Positions 471-9,182 of a stretch of 64,000 nt of DNA are shown piece by piece; the first letter of the stretch is position 1; every line of letters begins with the position of its first letter. Origin of the DNA: Flavobacteriales bacterium (lineage in GTDB: Bacteria; Bacteroidota; Bacteroidia; Flavobacteriales_F; PHOS-HE28); contig JAHBUL010000017.1 of NCBI GenBank assembly GCA_019638085.1, positions 1 through 64,000 of the forward strand, read 5' to 3'. Below the pieces are notes generated by a model, which searched no databases, was not told where the DNA came from, and worked only from the letters and a program-made list of their open reading frames with translations. Both the position numbers and the translations under genes were made by a program.

Positions 471-616
471 GCGTGAGGGATAGGAGCGGCACCCCGCAGT
501 GGTGTAGGGGCGATGCATGCATCGCACATGCGCCGCGAGGAGTAAAGCGGATAGCCCGACCCCGCTGCTCCTGATCGCAGCAGAGCGGAGCCGAAGGATG
601 AGCGGGGGCACGCCCA
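471..616 (-). repeat. Dispersed modular repeat, copy A (reverse orientation)
   Basis: Read on the minus strand, it starts TGGGCGTGCCCCCGCT, contains GGGGTCGGGCTATCCGCT and CTCCTCGC, and ends CTCCTATCCCTCACGC. The same three conserved boxes occur in the same order at 6384-6498 on the plus strand. Between the boxes the sequence differs but still pairs with itself: CCCCGCT is matched by AGCGGGG around the first variable arm, and a perfect 16-bp palindrome, GCGATGCATGCATCGC (510-525), lies in the second. It fills most of the gap between mrr and the four-helix-bundle gene. I have seen elements of this style scattered in Bacteroidota genomes; their function is unknown to me. Confidence 0.75.
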
Positions 617-4850: not shown

Positions 4851-6305
4851 ATGGCAAAGAAGAAAACCATCGATTGGGCACTCGCCCCCGCTCCTGAGAA
4901 CAAGGACCACATCACCATCAAGCCGCAGTATGAGCTCTTCATCGGCGGCAAATGGGTGAAGCCCAAGAGCGGCAAGTACTTCGATACCATCAACCCCGCC
5001 AACGAGCAGAAGCTCGCGCGCATCGCCGAGGCCAACGAGGCCGATGTGGATGCCGCCGTGAAGGCCGCCCGCAAGGCCTACCAGGGGCCATGGGGCAAGA
5101 TGCCCGCCAGCGAACGCGCCAAGTACATCTACCGCATTGCGCGGCTGATGCAGGAAAAAGCCCGCGAACTCGCCGTGATCGAAAGCATGGACGGCGGCAA
5201 GGCCATCCGCGAAAGCCGCGACATCGACATCCCGCTCGCCGCTGCCCACTTCTTCTACTATGCCGGCTGGGCCGACAAGATCTCCTACGCTTTCCCCGGC
5301 AAGCAGACCAGCCCGCTCGGCGTGGCCGGACAGGTGATCCCGTGGAACTTCCCGCTCCTGATGGCCTCCTGGAAACTCGCGCCCGCACTGGCCTGTGGCA
5401 ACACCGTGGTGCTGAAGCCCGCCGAGACCACACCCCTCACCGCACTGAAGCTTGCCGAGATCATCCAAGAAGCCGATCTCCCCGAAGGCGTCGTCAACAT
5501 CGTCACTGGCGCGGGGGCCACGGGCGCCGCGGTGGTCAACCATCCGGATGTCAACAAGGTCGCCTTCACCGGCAGCACCAACGTGGGCAAGCTCATCCAG
5601 CGAAGCACCGCAGGCTCCGGCAAAAAGCTCACCCTCGAGCTCGGCGGAAAAGCAGCCAACATCATCTTCGCAGACGCCACCATCGACCAGGCCGTGGAAG
5701 GCATCGTCAACGGCATCTACTTCAACCAAGGCCACGTATGCTGCGCCGGTAGCCGTCTCTACGTGGAAGAGGCCGTGTACGACGAAGTGCTGCGCAAGCT
5801 CAAGCACCGCATGAACAGCCTCGTCGTGGGCGACCCGCTGGACAAGAACACCGACATCGGCGCCATCAACAGCAAGGAACAGCTCGGCACCATCAACAAA
5901 TACCTCAAGATCGGCCAGGAGGAAGGCAGCGACATGTTCCAGCCCACCTGCGACCTGCCCAGCAAAGGCTTCTGGTGCCCACCCACGCTCTTCACCAACG
6001 TGGCCCAAAGCGCGCGCATCTCACAAGAAGAGATCTTCGGCCCCGTCCTCGCCGTGCAGACCTTCCGCACCATGGACGAAGTGCTGCAAAAGGCCAACAA
6101 CACCCCCTACGGCCTCAGCGCCGGCGTGTGGACGGACAAAGGCAGCAAGATCTTCAACATGACCACCAAGCTCCGCGCCGGCGTCATCTGGGCCAACACC
6201 TTCAACAAGTTCGATCCCACCTCACCGTTTGGCGGCTACAAGGAAAGCGGGTATGGACGGGAAGGAGGCGTGCATGGCTTGGGGGCGTACTTGAATTTGA
6301 ATTGA
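4851..6305 (+). CDS. Aldehyde dehydrogenase, full length
   Basis: This 484-aa NAD(P)-dependent aldehyde dehydrogenase oxidises an aldehyde to the acid. Visible motifs are PWNFP (around residue 166), the cofactor-binding FTGSTNVGK (239-247), LELGGK with the general base Glu263, and FNQGHVCCAG with catalytic Cys297. The length is normal for the family. A second ALDH gene at 8205 is truncated before the catalytic domain. A full-length plus a degenerate ALDH side by side is the arrangement fused in ALDH16 proteins, so I infer that the two products work together. The usual deoC neighbour is not in this window, and the substrate is unknown. The ATG at 4851 follows a short leader and gives a basic, lysine-rich start. 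Confidence 0.92.
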   Translation: MAKKKTIDWALAPAPENKDHITIKPQYELFIGGKWVKPKSGKYFDTINPANEQKLARIAEANEADVDAAVKAARKAYQGPWGKMPASERAKYIYRIARLMQEKARELAVIESMDGGKAIRESRDIDIPLAAAHFFYYAGWADKISYAFPGKQTSPLGVAGQVIPWNFPLLMASWKLAPALACGNTVVLKPAETTPLTALKLAEIIQEADLPEGVVNIVTGAGATGAAVVNHPDVNKVAFTGSTNVGKLIQRSTAGSGKKLTLELGGKAANIIFADATIDQAVEGIVNGIYFNQGHVCCAGSRLYVEEAVYDEVLRKLKHRMNSLVVGDPLDKNTDIGAINSKEQLGTINKYLKIGQEEGSDMFQPTCDLPSKGFWCPPTLFTNVAQSARISQEEIFGPVLAVQTFRTMDEVLQKANNTPYGLSAGVWTDKGSKIFNMTTKLRAGVIWANTFNKFDPTSPFGGYKESGYGREGGVHGLGAYLNLN

Positions 6306-6322
6306 GTGATGATGCACGCTGT

Positions 6323-6385
6323 CACATCGAGCAATAGCGAAGCGACACTACGCAGAGCGCGAAGCGATCGAGAAGTCGAGATGTG
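6323..6385. repeat. Imperfect inverted repeat abutting dispersed repeat copy B
   Basis: CACATCGAG near 6323 and GTCGAGATGTG ending at 6385 form an imperfect inverted pair. Between them lie short reiterations of GCGAAGCGA type. The element joins directly onto the dispersed repeat beginning at 6384. Elements with CACATCGAG...CGAGATGTG ends occur in many Bacteroidota intergenic regions as far as I know. It could be a hairpin left by a small mobile element or a terminator for the aldehyde dehydrogenase gene. Confidence 0.4.
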
Positions 6386-6498
6386 GGCGTGCCCCCTTGC
6401 TCAAATGCAGCAAGGGGTCGGGCTATCCGCTGCAAGTCCTCGCACCCCCGGCCTACGAGCCGGGGTCGCTGTGGGCTTTCCGCTTCTATCCCTCACGC
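6384..6498 (+). repeat. Dispersed modular repeat, copy B
   Basis: It starts TGGGCGTGCCCCC, contains GGGGTCGGGCTATCCGCT and GTCCTCGC, and ends CTTCTATCCCTCACGC, matching copy A at 471-616 box for box. Its variable arms differ from copy A yet pair perfectly: CCCCTTGCT with AGCAAGGGG (9 bp), and CCCCGGC with GCCGGGG (7 bp). It lies in the gap after the full-length ALDH gene, at the left border of the inserted block of small genes. It has no coding potential of its own. Confidence 0.75.
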
Positions 6499-6559
6499 AA
6501 GAGCAAACCTGAAGAAGCTCACAGGCGCATTCATGAACGCAGACTGCAAATTTTGAGAA

Positions 6560-6883
6560 ATGCCTGTTTCGCTGTCCTTCTCTTATGCGAAGCTCACTGA
6601 AGCGGTGGAGATTTTCGTGAACCATGAGGACGATGCAAGACAACGACTGCTCGCCGCCGAGATACCACTAACACTCATTTCAAGCGAGGACTTACCCGAG
6701 CCATACAACAAGGAATGGGCAACACTGTGGTCAATGCTAACGGATAGAGGCACGAGTCAGGATTTCTCACCATTCCAATATACCGTTCTGCAAATGAGGA
6801 AGAAGCGAGCAGCCCAGTTCATTGGAGAAATATGGAACATGATGGCCATGCTGGATTCCTTTATCAGGCGTGGTCCACATTGA
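6560..6883 (+). CDS. Small hypothetical protein
   Basis: The 107-aa protein is probably cytosolic and helical: AKLTEAVEIFVNHEDDARQR, then a middle LPEPYNKEWATLWSMLTDRG, then a basic helix RKKRAAQFIGEIWNMM. I do not recognise a named family. Its base composition is visibly less GC-rich than the ALDH genes on either side, and it follows the dispersed repeat, so it may be part of an acquired block. The layout of a short helical protein with a conserved Trp-rich middle resembles small orphan or immunity-like proteins, but that is only an impression. The stop lies upstream of the chosen start of the next gene. Confidence 0.5.
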   Translation: MPVSLSFSYAKLTEAVEIFVNHEDDARQRLLAAEIPLTLISSEDLPEPYNKEWATLWSMLTDRGTSQDFSPFQYTVLQMRKKRAAQFIGEIWNMMAMLDSFIRRGPH

Positions 6884-6935
6884 TTATTTCCATCTAATTC
6901 ACGCACATCAACCGACTCTGGTAGTTTTGATTGAG

Positions 6936-7460
6936 ATGCCTCCCCGCCTCGAATACATCACCATAGCAGCATTGTGCTTCTGCGGCTCTATCAATGCGCA
7001 GACCAATAAGATAGTGACCACTGCAATAGATAGGGTCGTCCAAGAGATCAATCAGTCGGAGGACTATGAGGTACGGACGCTGGAGAATGATGAATTTCTC
7101 GAGCAGATGACGGACGGCGGAGGTGAGTTGACGGGGCTGATGAGAAACGGACAATTGGTCAAGATGATTGAGCAGGTGGGTCTTTCGAGTTGCGTCAACG
7201 TCACTGAGTACTACTTCGAGAATTCCCAACTTGCTTTTATCTCAGTTCAAGGTTCGGAGTTCTCATATATCGACAGCACGTCCTCATTCGATCCACGCGC
7301 TCAGGACGTGACAATGAAAGCCAACTTCTATTTTCATGCGAACAAATTGATCGAGTCTGAGCTGAAGGGTTCAACGCGTTGTGGAGGTGCTCCAACCAAG
7401 GAATGGGCAGCGGTTTATCAAACCGAGGCACTGCGACTCAAGGGTTTGTTGATGCACTAG
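6936..7460 (+). CDS. Secreted or periplasmic hypothetical protein
   Basis: The 174-aa protein starts at the ATG at 6936, which places a signal peptide at the N-terminus (MPPRLEYITIAALCFCGSIN, then AQ as the likely cleavage site). Starting further upstream would put 22 residues ahead of the signal. The mature part contains two pairs of acidic segments and an alternating beta-like pattern (VTEYYFENSQLAFISVQGSE). Two cysteines, one in SSCVN and one in TRCGG, could form a disulfide. The family is not recognised. Like the preceding gene, it is less GC-rich than its surroundings. Confidence 0.6.
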   Translation: MPPRLEYITIAALCFCGSINAQTNKIVTTAIDRVVQEINQSEDYEVRTLENDEFLEQMTDGGGELTGLMRNGQLVKMIEQVGLSSCVNVTEYYFENSQLAFISVQGSEFSYIDSTSSFDPRAQDVTMKANFYFHANKLIESELKGSTRCGGAPTKEWAAVYQTEALRLKGLLMH

Positions 7461-7489
7461 GAACAAGGTTCCCCAACTCTAGCGCGACT

Positions 7490-7705
7490 TTACACTCGTG
7501 CCTTTGCACCATCTTTTCCCGGCTTCACTGAACAGTAGAAGCAAATTTCTTTCGCAACTGGCTTCGGAACCGGAGCACTGTAGAATTCTTGGGCATCTGG
7601 GAGCGCCTCAACAATCCAATTTTCAATCCCGTCGAATTCGACGGGATTAGAATGCATACAGGTATGGACAGCTTCGAGTTCAACGACCGTACCTAACGAA
7701 GACAT
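7490..7705 (-). CDS. Small hypothetical protein (uncertain)
   Basis: A 71-aa reading frame starts at the ATG at 7705 (MSSLGTVVELEAVHTCMHSN). An upstream ATG at 7726 would abut the next gene's start. The sequence has plausible composition (EFDGIENWIVEALPDAQEF, then FYCSVKPGKDGAK) but no recognisable domain. It is the only frame of any length in the gap 7461-7726. It may be a real gene on the opposite strand or a chance frame. Confidence 0.3.
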   Translation of the reverse strand: MSSLGTVVELEAVHTCMHSNPVEFDGIENWIVEALPDAQEFYSAPVPKPVAKEICFYCSVKPGKDGAKARV

Positions 7706-7726
7706 TCCACGCCTACCTTCGGTCAC

Positions 7727-8113
7727 ATGCGGTCCGTCATAACCATAGGCGAAGTCTCCGAGCTGCGGGCTCCCTTAAAGTACTTCCGTCCTTGGCTGCG
7801 GAATGAGAAGCCCAGTGCCTTCGATCTTCCGACACGGCAGGAGCTGGTCCTGCTCGGAGTCGCCTTCTTCTTCGCTCCATTGGTGATCGCTTTTGCATCC
7901 ATTTGGATCTTCTTCCAAGAGGAATTCGCGGAGTTGCATGGCAGGGAGCGTGTTCTCTTCCTCCTAGCAGTCCCGTTCCTTTTGCCTGCCGCCTATTGTT
8001 ACGTGGTCGTGCATGACATGATTCGGCCCTTGGCCATGCGCATCCTGCTGCGGAGGCGCTTGCTCCGCGAGGCGAAAAAAGCGGTCCGGGAGCTTATGGC
8101 AGGTTTGCCTTGA
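7727..8113 (+). CDS. Hypothetical two-span membrane protein
   Basis: The 128-aa protein has a hydrophilic N-terminus of ~40 residues, then two hydrophobic segments (LVLLGVAFFFAPLVIAFASI and VLFLLAVPFLLPAAYCYVVV). It ends in a very basic helix (RILLRRRLLREAKKAVREL). The positive-inside rule would leave both ends in the cytoplasm. No family is recognised. It is the last gene before the truncated ALDH paralogue, and its GC-rich codon use is closer to the flanking host genes than to the two ORFs at 6.5-7.5 kb. Confidence 0.6.
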   Translation: MRSVITIGEVSELRAPLKYFRPWLRNEKPSAFDLPTRQELVLLGVAFFFAPLVIAFASIWIFFQEEFAELHGRERVLFLLAVPFLLPAAYCYVVVHDMIRPLAMRILLRRRLLREAKKAVRELMAGLP

Positions 8114-8204
8114 GCGATGAACAGAGCCTACGCTGGCTGGCAATTCCCGCTGGCGCAGGCACTTCAGCCCATGGGCTTAACTTTGGCTACGAACTACGAT
8201 CTCC

Positions 8205-9182
8205 ATGGCCAAGACCGCGACCAAGCCTACCTCCCCTTCTGCCAAGGCCGAAAAGCCTGCCCATAACGGACACGACACTACCGTTGCCGCCAAGAAAGCC
8301 GAACGCCTTCCGGTGATGAAGACCTACAAGATCTTCATCGGCGGAAAGTTCCCTCGTACCGAGAGCGGCCGTTACTACCAGCCCAAGGACGCGGATGGCA
8401 AGCCGCTTGCGAACATCTGCCGGGGCAGCCGCAAGGACATCCGCAACAGCGTAGTAGCAGCGCGAAAGGCCGTAGGCGATTGGGCGAACCGCAGTGCATT
8501 CAATCGGGGACAGATCCTCTACCGCATCGGCGAAATGCTCGAAGGCCGTAGCGCCCAGTTCGTGCATGAATTGGAACTGCACGGCGCAACGCGCAAACAT
8601 GCGGAGGCTGAGGTGAGCGCCGCCATCGACTGCTGGATCTATTACGCAGGCTGGTGCGACAAATACCAAGCGATCTTCAGCAGCGTGAACCCTACGAACA
8701 GTTCACACTTCAACTTCAGCGTACAGGAACCCACCGGCGTGGTGGGCCTGATGGCACCAAGCACCTCCGGCCTCATCGGACTGGTGAGCACCGTGGCACC
8801 GATCATCGCGGGCGGCAACACCGCGGTGGTAGTGGCCAGCGAAGATCATCCATTACCGGCCGTCACCTTCGCGGAAGTGCTCGCCACCAGCGACCTGCCC
8901 GGCGGCGTGGTGAACCTCATCACCGGCCTGCGCTCGGAACTCCTGAAACCGCTCATTACACACATGGACATCAATGCCGTGGTATGCGCGGATCCCACCA
9001 AAGAGGAGAAGCAAATGCTGGACACCGAGGCCGCCACGAACATGAAGCGTCTGGTGGTACCCAAGGTGAAGGACTGGATGCAAGAGGAAGGCCGCACACC
9101 CTACATGATCCTGGACACGCAGGAGGTGAAGACCACCTGGCACCCGATCGAGCGCGGGCAGGGTGGGGGCGGCGGGTATTGA
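8205..9182 (+). CDS. Truncated aldehyde dehydrogenase-like protein without catalytic domain
   Basis: The 325-aa protein begins with a Lys/Ala-rich leader (~35 aa) and then follows the ALDH fold: YKIFIGGKFPRTESGRYY, AIDCWIYYAGWCDKY, VGLMAPSTSGLIGLV in place of PWNFP, GGNTAVVVAS and LPGGVVNLITG. It then departs. The FTGS, LELGGK and catalytic-Cys segments are absent. About 75 residues of other sequence follow, ending in Gly-Gly-Gly-Gly-Gly-Tyr. The frame is open and clean, so this is not simply a broken gene; I infer a non-catalytic partner of the ALDH at 4851, as in the second half of ALDH16. The two genes are 1.9 kb apart because of the inserted block. Confidence 0.85.
   Translation: MAKTATKPTSPSAKAEKPAHNGHDTTVAAKKAERLPVMKTYKIFIGGKFPRTESGRYYQPKDADGKPLANICRGSRKDIRNSVVAARKAVGDWANRSAFNRGQILYRIGEMLEGRSAQFVHELELHGATRKHAEAEVSAAIDCWIYYAGWCDKYQAIFSSVNPTNSSHFNFSVQEPTGVVGLMAPSTSGLIGLVSTVAPIIAGGNTAVVVASEDHPLPAVTFAEVLATSDLPGGVVNLITGLRSELLKPLITHMDINAVVCADPTKEEKQMLDTEAATNMKRLVVPKVKDWMQEEGRTPYMILDTQEVKTTWHPIERGQGGGGGY

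Follow-up and report, generated by a model that had tools for sequence, protein, structure and literature searches.

Two copies of Flavo-1 and their neighbouring genes

The window, that is, the whole stretch of 64,000 nucleotides analysed here (Flavobacteriales bacterium, contig JAHBUL010000017.1), begins with a gene on the minus strand (2–436, cut by the window edge) encoding an Mrr N-terminal domain characteristic of type IV restriction (PF14338, E 3e-31). Next to it lies a folded element at 471–615 on the plus strand (copy A), followed by a minus-strand gene at 623–1288 for a four-helix-bundle protein of the 23S rRNA IVP-like kind (PF05635, E 2e-4, below the cut-off). The stop codon of the latter gene is 7 nt from copy A, and the gene is kept at this place in relatives. 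The Mrr_N gene is thus on the 5′ side of copy A, hereafter the cargo side, and the four-helix-bundle gene on its 3′, or outer, side.

The second copy of the same element (copy B) is located 5.8 kb away at 6385–6498, in the opposite orientation, on the minus strand. On its outer side there is a conserved aldehyde dehydrogenase gene (4851–6305, plus strand). On its cargo side, the interval 6499–8204 contains three small ORFs (6560–6883, 6870–7460 and 7727–8113), none of which matched Pfam, and ends at the next conserved gene at 8205. The content and length of this interval differ in each relative. It should be mentioned that another repeat of Bacteroidota type, TGTCACATCGAGC...GTCGAGATG, occupies positions 6322–6384 between the aldehyde dehydrogenase stop codon and copy B; similar sequences were found at the same place in four relatives (L118, L121, L127, L129).

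The two copies had been described in the earlier note as a repeat pair with three shared boxes and variable hairpin arms. The pair is real, and the three boxes and all the named arms were recovered. The boxes were read on the minus strand at copy A, where the Flavo-1 strand is the plus strand.

Comparison of the window with Rfam at the gathering threshold gave no match, and it was an E-value scan of related copies that revealed Flavo-1 (RF01705), with E-values of 5e-9, 6e-4, 8e-4, 3e-3, 4e-3 and 0.17. Against the gathering cut of 42 bits, two relatives scored 52.3 and 52.0 bits, others 31–34 bits, and copy A 24.9 bits (E 0.17, on the same strand). All these copies fall into one homologous set joined by R1, a covariance model that found full-length matches throughout the phylum. 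With this model copy A scored 71.2 bits (E 1.8e-13) and copy B 97.7 bits (E 1.4e-19), both copies being members of the training set. The helices of the Rfam model align with arm P2 of R1, whose consensus helices and loops are the same, and the pair counts agree; the central arm, the strand and the host phylum are the same in Flavo-1 and in the window copies. We regard it as near certain that both copies are Flavo-1. Their earlier placement among intergenic sequences of Bacteroidota without an assigned function was right, but the element already had a name. Our search for literature on an intergenic repeat of such kind in Flavobacterium found none.

The element is not limited to the two copies known at first. 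Single boxes searched alone at two to three mismatches were not above chance. In this genome the exact 14-mer TCGGGCTATCCGCT is confined to the two copies, with one-mismatch sites elsewhere, and the combined motif GGTCGGGCTATCCGCT was present in 31 of the 58 genomes of a set of relatives (one to nine sites each; reversed-pattern controls were near zero). Whole elements from the relatives have one common architecture, and a third, diverged copy (L004) lies on a different contig of this assembly.

Fold and covariation of the full-length element

Independent copies fold alike under DNA and RNA parameters, on the strand opposite to that of the originally described boxes. The full unit is about 75–150 nt long and forms a closed three-way junction, YYY|GCGTG...CACGCCC|AAA, composed of an outer stem GCGTG/CACGC, a long arm P2 whose tip is variable, and P1, a further hairpin that is variable too. 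P2 consists of short helices between symmetric internal loops, in the order GGG-A-TA-(3x3 loop)-GC-(3x3 loop)-AAG-C-CC, and these loops are purine-rich on the Flavo-1 strand.

In copy A the outer stem is formed by GCGTG at 471–475 and CACGC at 609–613, and its pairs covary. The conserved central arm P2, with its symmetric purine-rich loops, occupies 477–557 (GGG at 477–479, CCC at 555–557) and has a variable tip holding a 16-nt palindrome; P1 extends over 560–607, with arms at 560–566 and 601–607. In copy B the halves of the outer stem are at 6387–6391 and 6494–6498, P2 with its variable tip is at 6420–6492, and P1 is at 6393–6417, its arms (6393–6401 and 6409–6417) being CCCCTTGCT/AGCAAGGGG. 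The 76-nt Rfam model comprises the central arm and a few flanking bases; it lacks the stem that closes the element, the variable hairpin P1 and the sharply defined termini, which are therefore new relative to it.

Base-pairing is kept while the arms vary, as the earlier note had proposed from two copies. Among 87 distinct copies, 94.3% of the cells were paired and 25 of the 26 pairs showed two-sided changes (268 such cells); none of 500 shuffles reached this level, and slid controls were 22–45% paired. A further 94 copies, taken from named genomes and absent from the training set, gave 94.0% paired cells and 279 two-sided cells. Fitting the alignments to the structure biases these percentages upward, but it does not account for them, as the slid controls show.

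The outer ends, taken before for fixed boxes, turned out to be paired: GCGTG/CACGC covaries with GCGTT/AACGC, and the ends read GCGTG(A/G) / CACGCCC or GCGTTAGGG / AACGCCC. They are sharp, with a pyrimidine at position −1 in 246 of 263 copies and AAA past the end in 149 of 263. The mismatches that are tolerated within helices are strand-biased (G-T 71 versus A-C 34), which indicates that it is one particular strand that folds.

Both the covariation and this bias support the earlier suggestion of selection on folded RNA or single-stranded DNA rather than copy decay. However, whole P1 arms are swapped between near-identical elements at one locus (CCCGGAGGG versus GGTTCGCCGCGGCGAA). Such whole-arm replacement is possible via template switching at palindromes, and so the covariation is not purely a product of selection; template switching may add to it.

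In several Flavobacterium copies (L322, L328, L329, L201 and others) the 5′ end of the element is preceded, at a distance of about 35 nt, by an inverted repeat CTCGGT...ACCGAG. This lineage-specific repeat has a conserved 16-nt motif, TTATGAAACCGAGTTT, and is common to copies with different cargo.

Distribution of Flavo-1 and variable gene content beside it

At least one copy (E <= 0.01) was detected in 51 of 296 Bacteroidota genomes, with up to at least 13 copies per genome; all per-genome counts are lower bounds. Named hosts include Flavobacterium, Algibacter, Arenibacter, Pedobacter, Mucilaginibacter, Limnovirga, Niabella and Adhaeribacter. Neighbouring genes are found in all four orientations around the element, and 3′ gene ends are favoured on both sides (135 of 210 and 137 of 206). 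This mixture of orientations, together with the preference for 3′ gene ends, argues against a fixed regulatory position.

In three Flavobacterium genomes (G122, G196, G272) copies with a long extended P1 were located 430–720 nt from similar contig ends (L342-L347, L350, L351). These copies probably adjoin a region repeated in the genome, rRNA operons for example; no rRNA or tRNA match was found beside them in the first 3 kb.

One locus of variable gene content, a syntenic gene pair of Flavobacterium, was matched in 144 of 150 species and parsed in 45. In about nine species the gap of 50–310 contained neither element nor ORF, with one marginal ORF exception; one species had Flavo-1 alone in the slot, and in about 26 Flavo-1 came after a single small ORF or a pair of them, always in the same orientation. 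Thus, element-bearing and element-free orthologous sites both exist. The element is followed by about 50–140 nt on its 3′ side versus 12–1756 nt on its 5′ side. A few species have an ORF but no detected Flavo-1, though in one of these a decayed remnant was recognized by eye. ORF-element-ORF-element tandems occur at L341, L201 and L321, and species with about 92% identical flanks bear different ORFs. In one species (L336) a four-helix-bundle (S23-like) gene, the same kind of gene as that flanking copy A, was seen in the slot without Flavo-1.

The idea of a cassette family travelling genome-wide was not borne out for the one cargo ORF family tested, which was bound to this locus in 10 of 12 genomes. 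Exchange through the flanking genes therefore likely contributes.

Another such locus is that of copy B. Within the genus to which the window belongs, the model placed Flavo-1 within about 100 nt of the stop codon of the same aldehyde dehydrogenase gene (ALDH1) in 23 of 26 species. The interval between ALDH1 and the next conserved gene, ALDH2, is 0.15 kb in one species without the element (G020) and 1.9–18.4 kb in the others. Among the genes beside the element in this interval are a C5 methylase accompanied by an ApaLI-like nuclease (below the cut-off), AbiJ_NTD4, an Eco57I-type methylase, an RVT_1 reverse transcriptase, TIR_2 (below the cut-off), SLFN_AlbA_2 and Abi_C. In G024 the Flavo-1 by ALDH1 (L125 / L163) appears to be split by an apparent insertion sequence.

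At the best-sampled loci the 3′ side of the element is conserved, and the 5′ side carries 0–18 kb of species-specific genes. Neighbouring copies show a related pattern, although the numbers are small. The 13 pairs less than 1.5 kb apart comprised eight inverted pairs with the 5′ ends facing each other, no inverted pair with facing 3′ ends and five direct pairs. That all close inverted pairs are oriented 5′ to 5′ fits the 5′ side being the cargo side. At distances of 1.5–6 kb, three pairs were inverted and 5′-facing, nine inverted and 3′-facing, and six direct. Exceptions to the polarity, with extra DNA on the 3′ side, were found at L204, L252 and the L195/L185 pair; outside the genus of the window, homology of one flank only was seen about equally often on either side.

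No target duplication was seen when insertion sites were compared between species, with the joints placed at less than base-level precision. Among the first genes beside Flavo-1 (138 on the cargo side and 118 on the outer side) no family or recombinase was enriched, and the cargo-side first genes of the whole set were not clearly enriched for defence.

A putative DNA element bordering gene cassettes

To account for these data, we suggest, with about even confidence, that Flavo-1 is a single-strand-folding DNA element of REP/REPIN-like kind that borders exchangeable gene cassettes. One strand would fold into the closed three-way junction while single-stranded, the active form being DNA, and the element itself would move, spreading as a repeat of REP/REPIN type. 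The fold would then constitute one boundary of a slot where gene cassettes insert and swap, the element taking part in the exchange, with its 3′ end (CCC|AAA) predicted to face the stable host gene and its 5′ end (YYY|GCGTG) the cargo.

The comparison with REP/REPIN sequences and their RAYT proteins (PMC3116915, PMC2817692) rests on several common features: both kinds of repeat are dispersed, intergenic and palindromic, form inverted pairs and are found at gene 3′ ends. The differences are also clear. A REP is one hairpin of 20–40 nt, whereas Flavo-1 is a three-way junction of 75–150 nt; RAYT genes do not track Flavo-1; and Flavo-1 differs by bordering gene cassettes. In this last respect it resembles the defence hotspots between conserved genes, since the restriction, Abi, TIR or RT genes of the ALDH1-ALDH2 interval vary from species to species; the slot beside Flavo-1 is distinguished from them by a folded repeat at one fixed border.

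It is less probable, but a serious alternative, that Flavo-1 is a passive, selfish REP-like repeat, mobile now or once, which settles in spots variable for other reasons and has no part in exchange. The preference for 3′ gene ends, the occupation of the same spots by other intergenic repeats and the exceptions to the polarity all agree with this reading. So do the locus-bound cargo families, which fit allelic exchange through the flanking genes without a role for Flavo-1. Such a random bystander should, however, have cargo on either side. The cargo is one-sided both where Flavo-1 is present in the Flavobacterium slot and beside ALDH1, with the reservation that sites of one locus are not independent of each other; moreover, in all eight close inverted pairs the 5′ ends face each other.

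Returning to the DNA element at the border of exchangeable cassettes, a stronger form of this proposal can be put forward only tentatively. Flavo-1 might be a folded single-stranded DNA recombination site, or an end, of an unrecognised cassette-exchange system of Bacteroidota that in some lineages distributes anti-phage genes. Its logic would parallel that of integron attC sites, with a three-way-junction fold and a different enzyme.

Flavo-1 was described in 2010 as a candidate RNA of Bacteroidetes that is not cis-regulatory (Weinberg et al. 2010, PMC2864571). Since then it has been catalogued as a candidate small RNA, and a 2022 review counted it among abundant sRNAs without function. Rfam files it as such (Gene, sRNA), and the evidence obtained here leans to a DNA element. 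If Flavo-1 were a structured RNA (an sRNA or a 3′-UTR element), the transcript of the Flavo-1 strand would fold and act. The covariation and the excess of G-T over A-C mismatches, which marks one strand as folded, are in line with this, as is the location of the element in sense orientation after the cassette ORF at the Flavobacterium locus. Nevertheless, we consider this explanation unlikely, because elsewhere the orientation to genes is mixed, and copy number and site vary between species. G-U pairs are few, amounting to 1.75% of standard pairs in Flavo-1 versus 6.6% in small SRP RNA from Bacteroidota, with one-sided changes at 10% versus 19%, in a comparison that uses one RNA control and ignores relatedness. 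There is no T-run terminator downstream. The published transcriptome of Flavobacterium psychrophilum does not show consistent transcription either: Flavo-1 matches are sense or antisense, and many lie outside transcribed regions (PMC9723704). That Flavo-1 acts as a DNA element rather than as RNA is thus moderately supported. An intrinsic terminator was rejected too, as the sequence lacks a T-run and is A-rich past the 3′ end and T/C-rich before the 5′ end.

Were Flavo-1 the target or end of a Y1 transposase of the RAYT/IS200 type, this would fit its REP-like behaviour and the inverted pairs, and the sole Flavo-1 of one genome (L105 in G047) lies about 190 nt from a Y1 gene. Yet Flavo-1 is absent from the flanks of the other 30 Y1 loci (1 of 31 with it), and three genomes with 3, at least 10 and at least 12 copies (G138, G256 and G272, respectively) have no PF01797 match. 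We therefore rejected a general link to RAYT, and the explanation as a whole seems very improbable.

Least credible of all is an attC-type site served by an integron integrase. Flavo-1 and attC do have in common a single-strand fold with a conserved core and a variable tip, a location downstream of small ORFs and occasional two-cassette tandems, but the GTTRRRY/RYYYAAC core (R boxes) is absent from the Flavo-1 ends, and integrase_gron, over the cut-off in 84 of 296 genomes, was seen in only 1 of the 51 Flavo-1 genomes, which largely refutes this origin. Besides, the cargo slot of Flavo-1 is on one side of a single element, and ORF orientation is mixed in the genus of the window.

Should Flavo-1 prove to be a DNA element bordering cassettes, its annotations ought not to be taken as sRNA genes. 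The full element with its outer stem and P1 could then serve to locate the borders of cassettes throughout Bacteroidota, and the adjoining slots would be places to seek new anti-phage genes and the enzyme that recognizes the fold.

Flavo-1 is also present in 36 plasmid records of Bacteroides, Parabacteroides and Phocaeicola; in one backbone it is situated between an ArdC gene and a recombinase stop codon. In Bacteroides conjugative plasmids, as in L449 (NZ_CP041231.1 33322-33398), it lies between a gene for an ArdC-like single-stranded-DNA-binding protein and the recombinase gene, and a role of the plasmid Flavo-1 in the single-stranded leading region of these plasmids is possible. In addition, the element was found on eight contigs classed as viral. 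One contig of this class, 9 kb in length (L445, IMGVR_UViG_3300028735_000371), contains five copies, four of which form two inverted pairs 24–29 nt apart.
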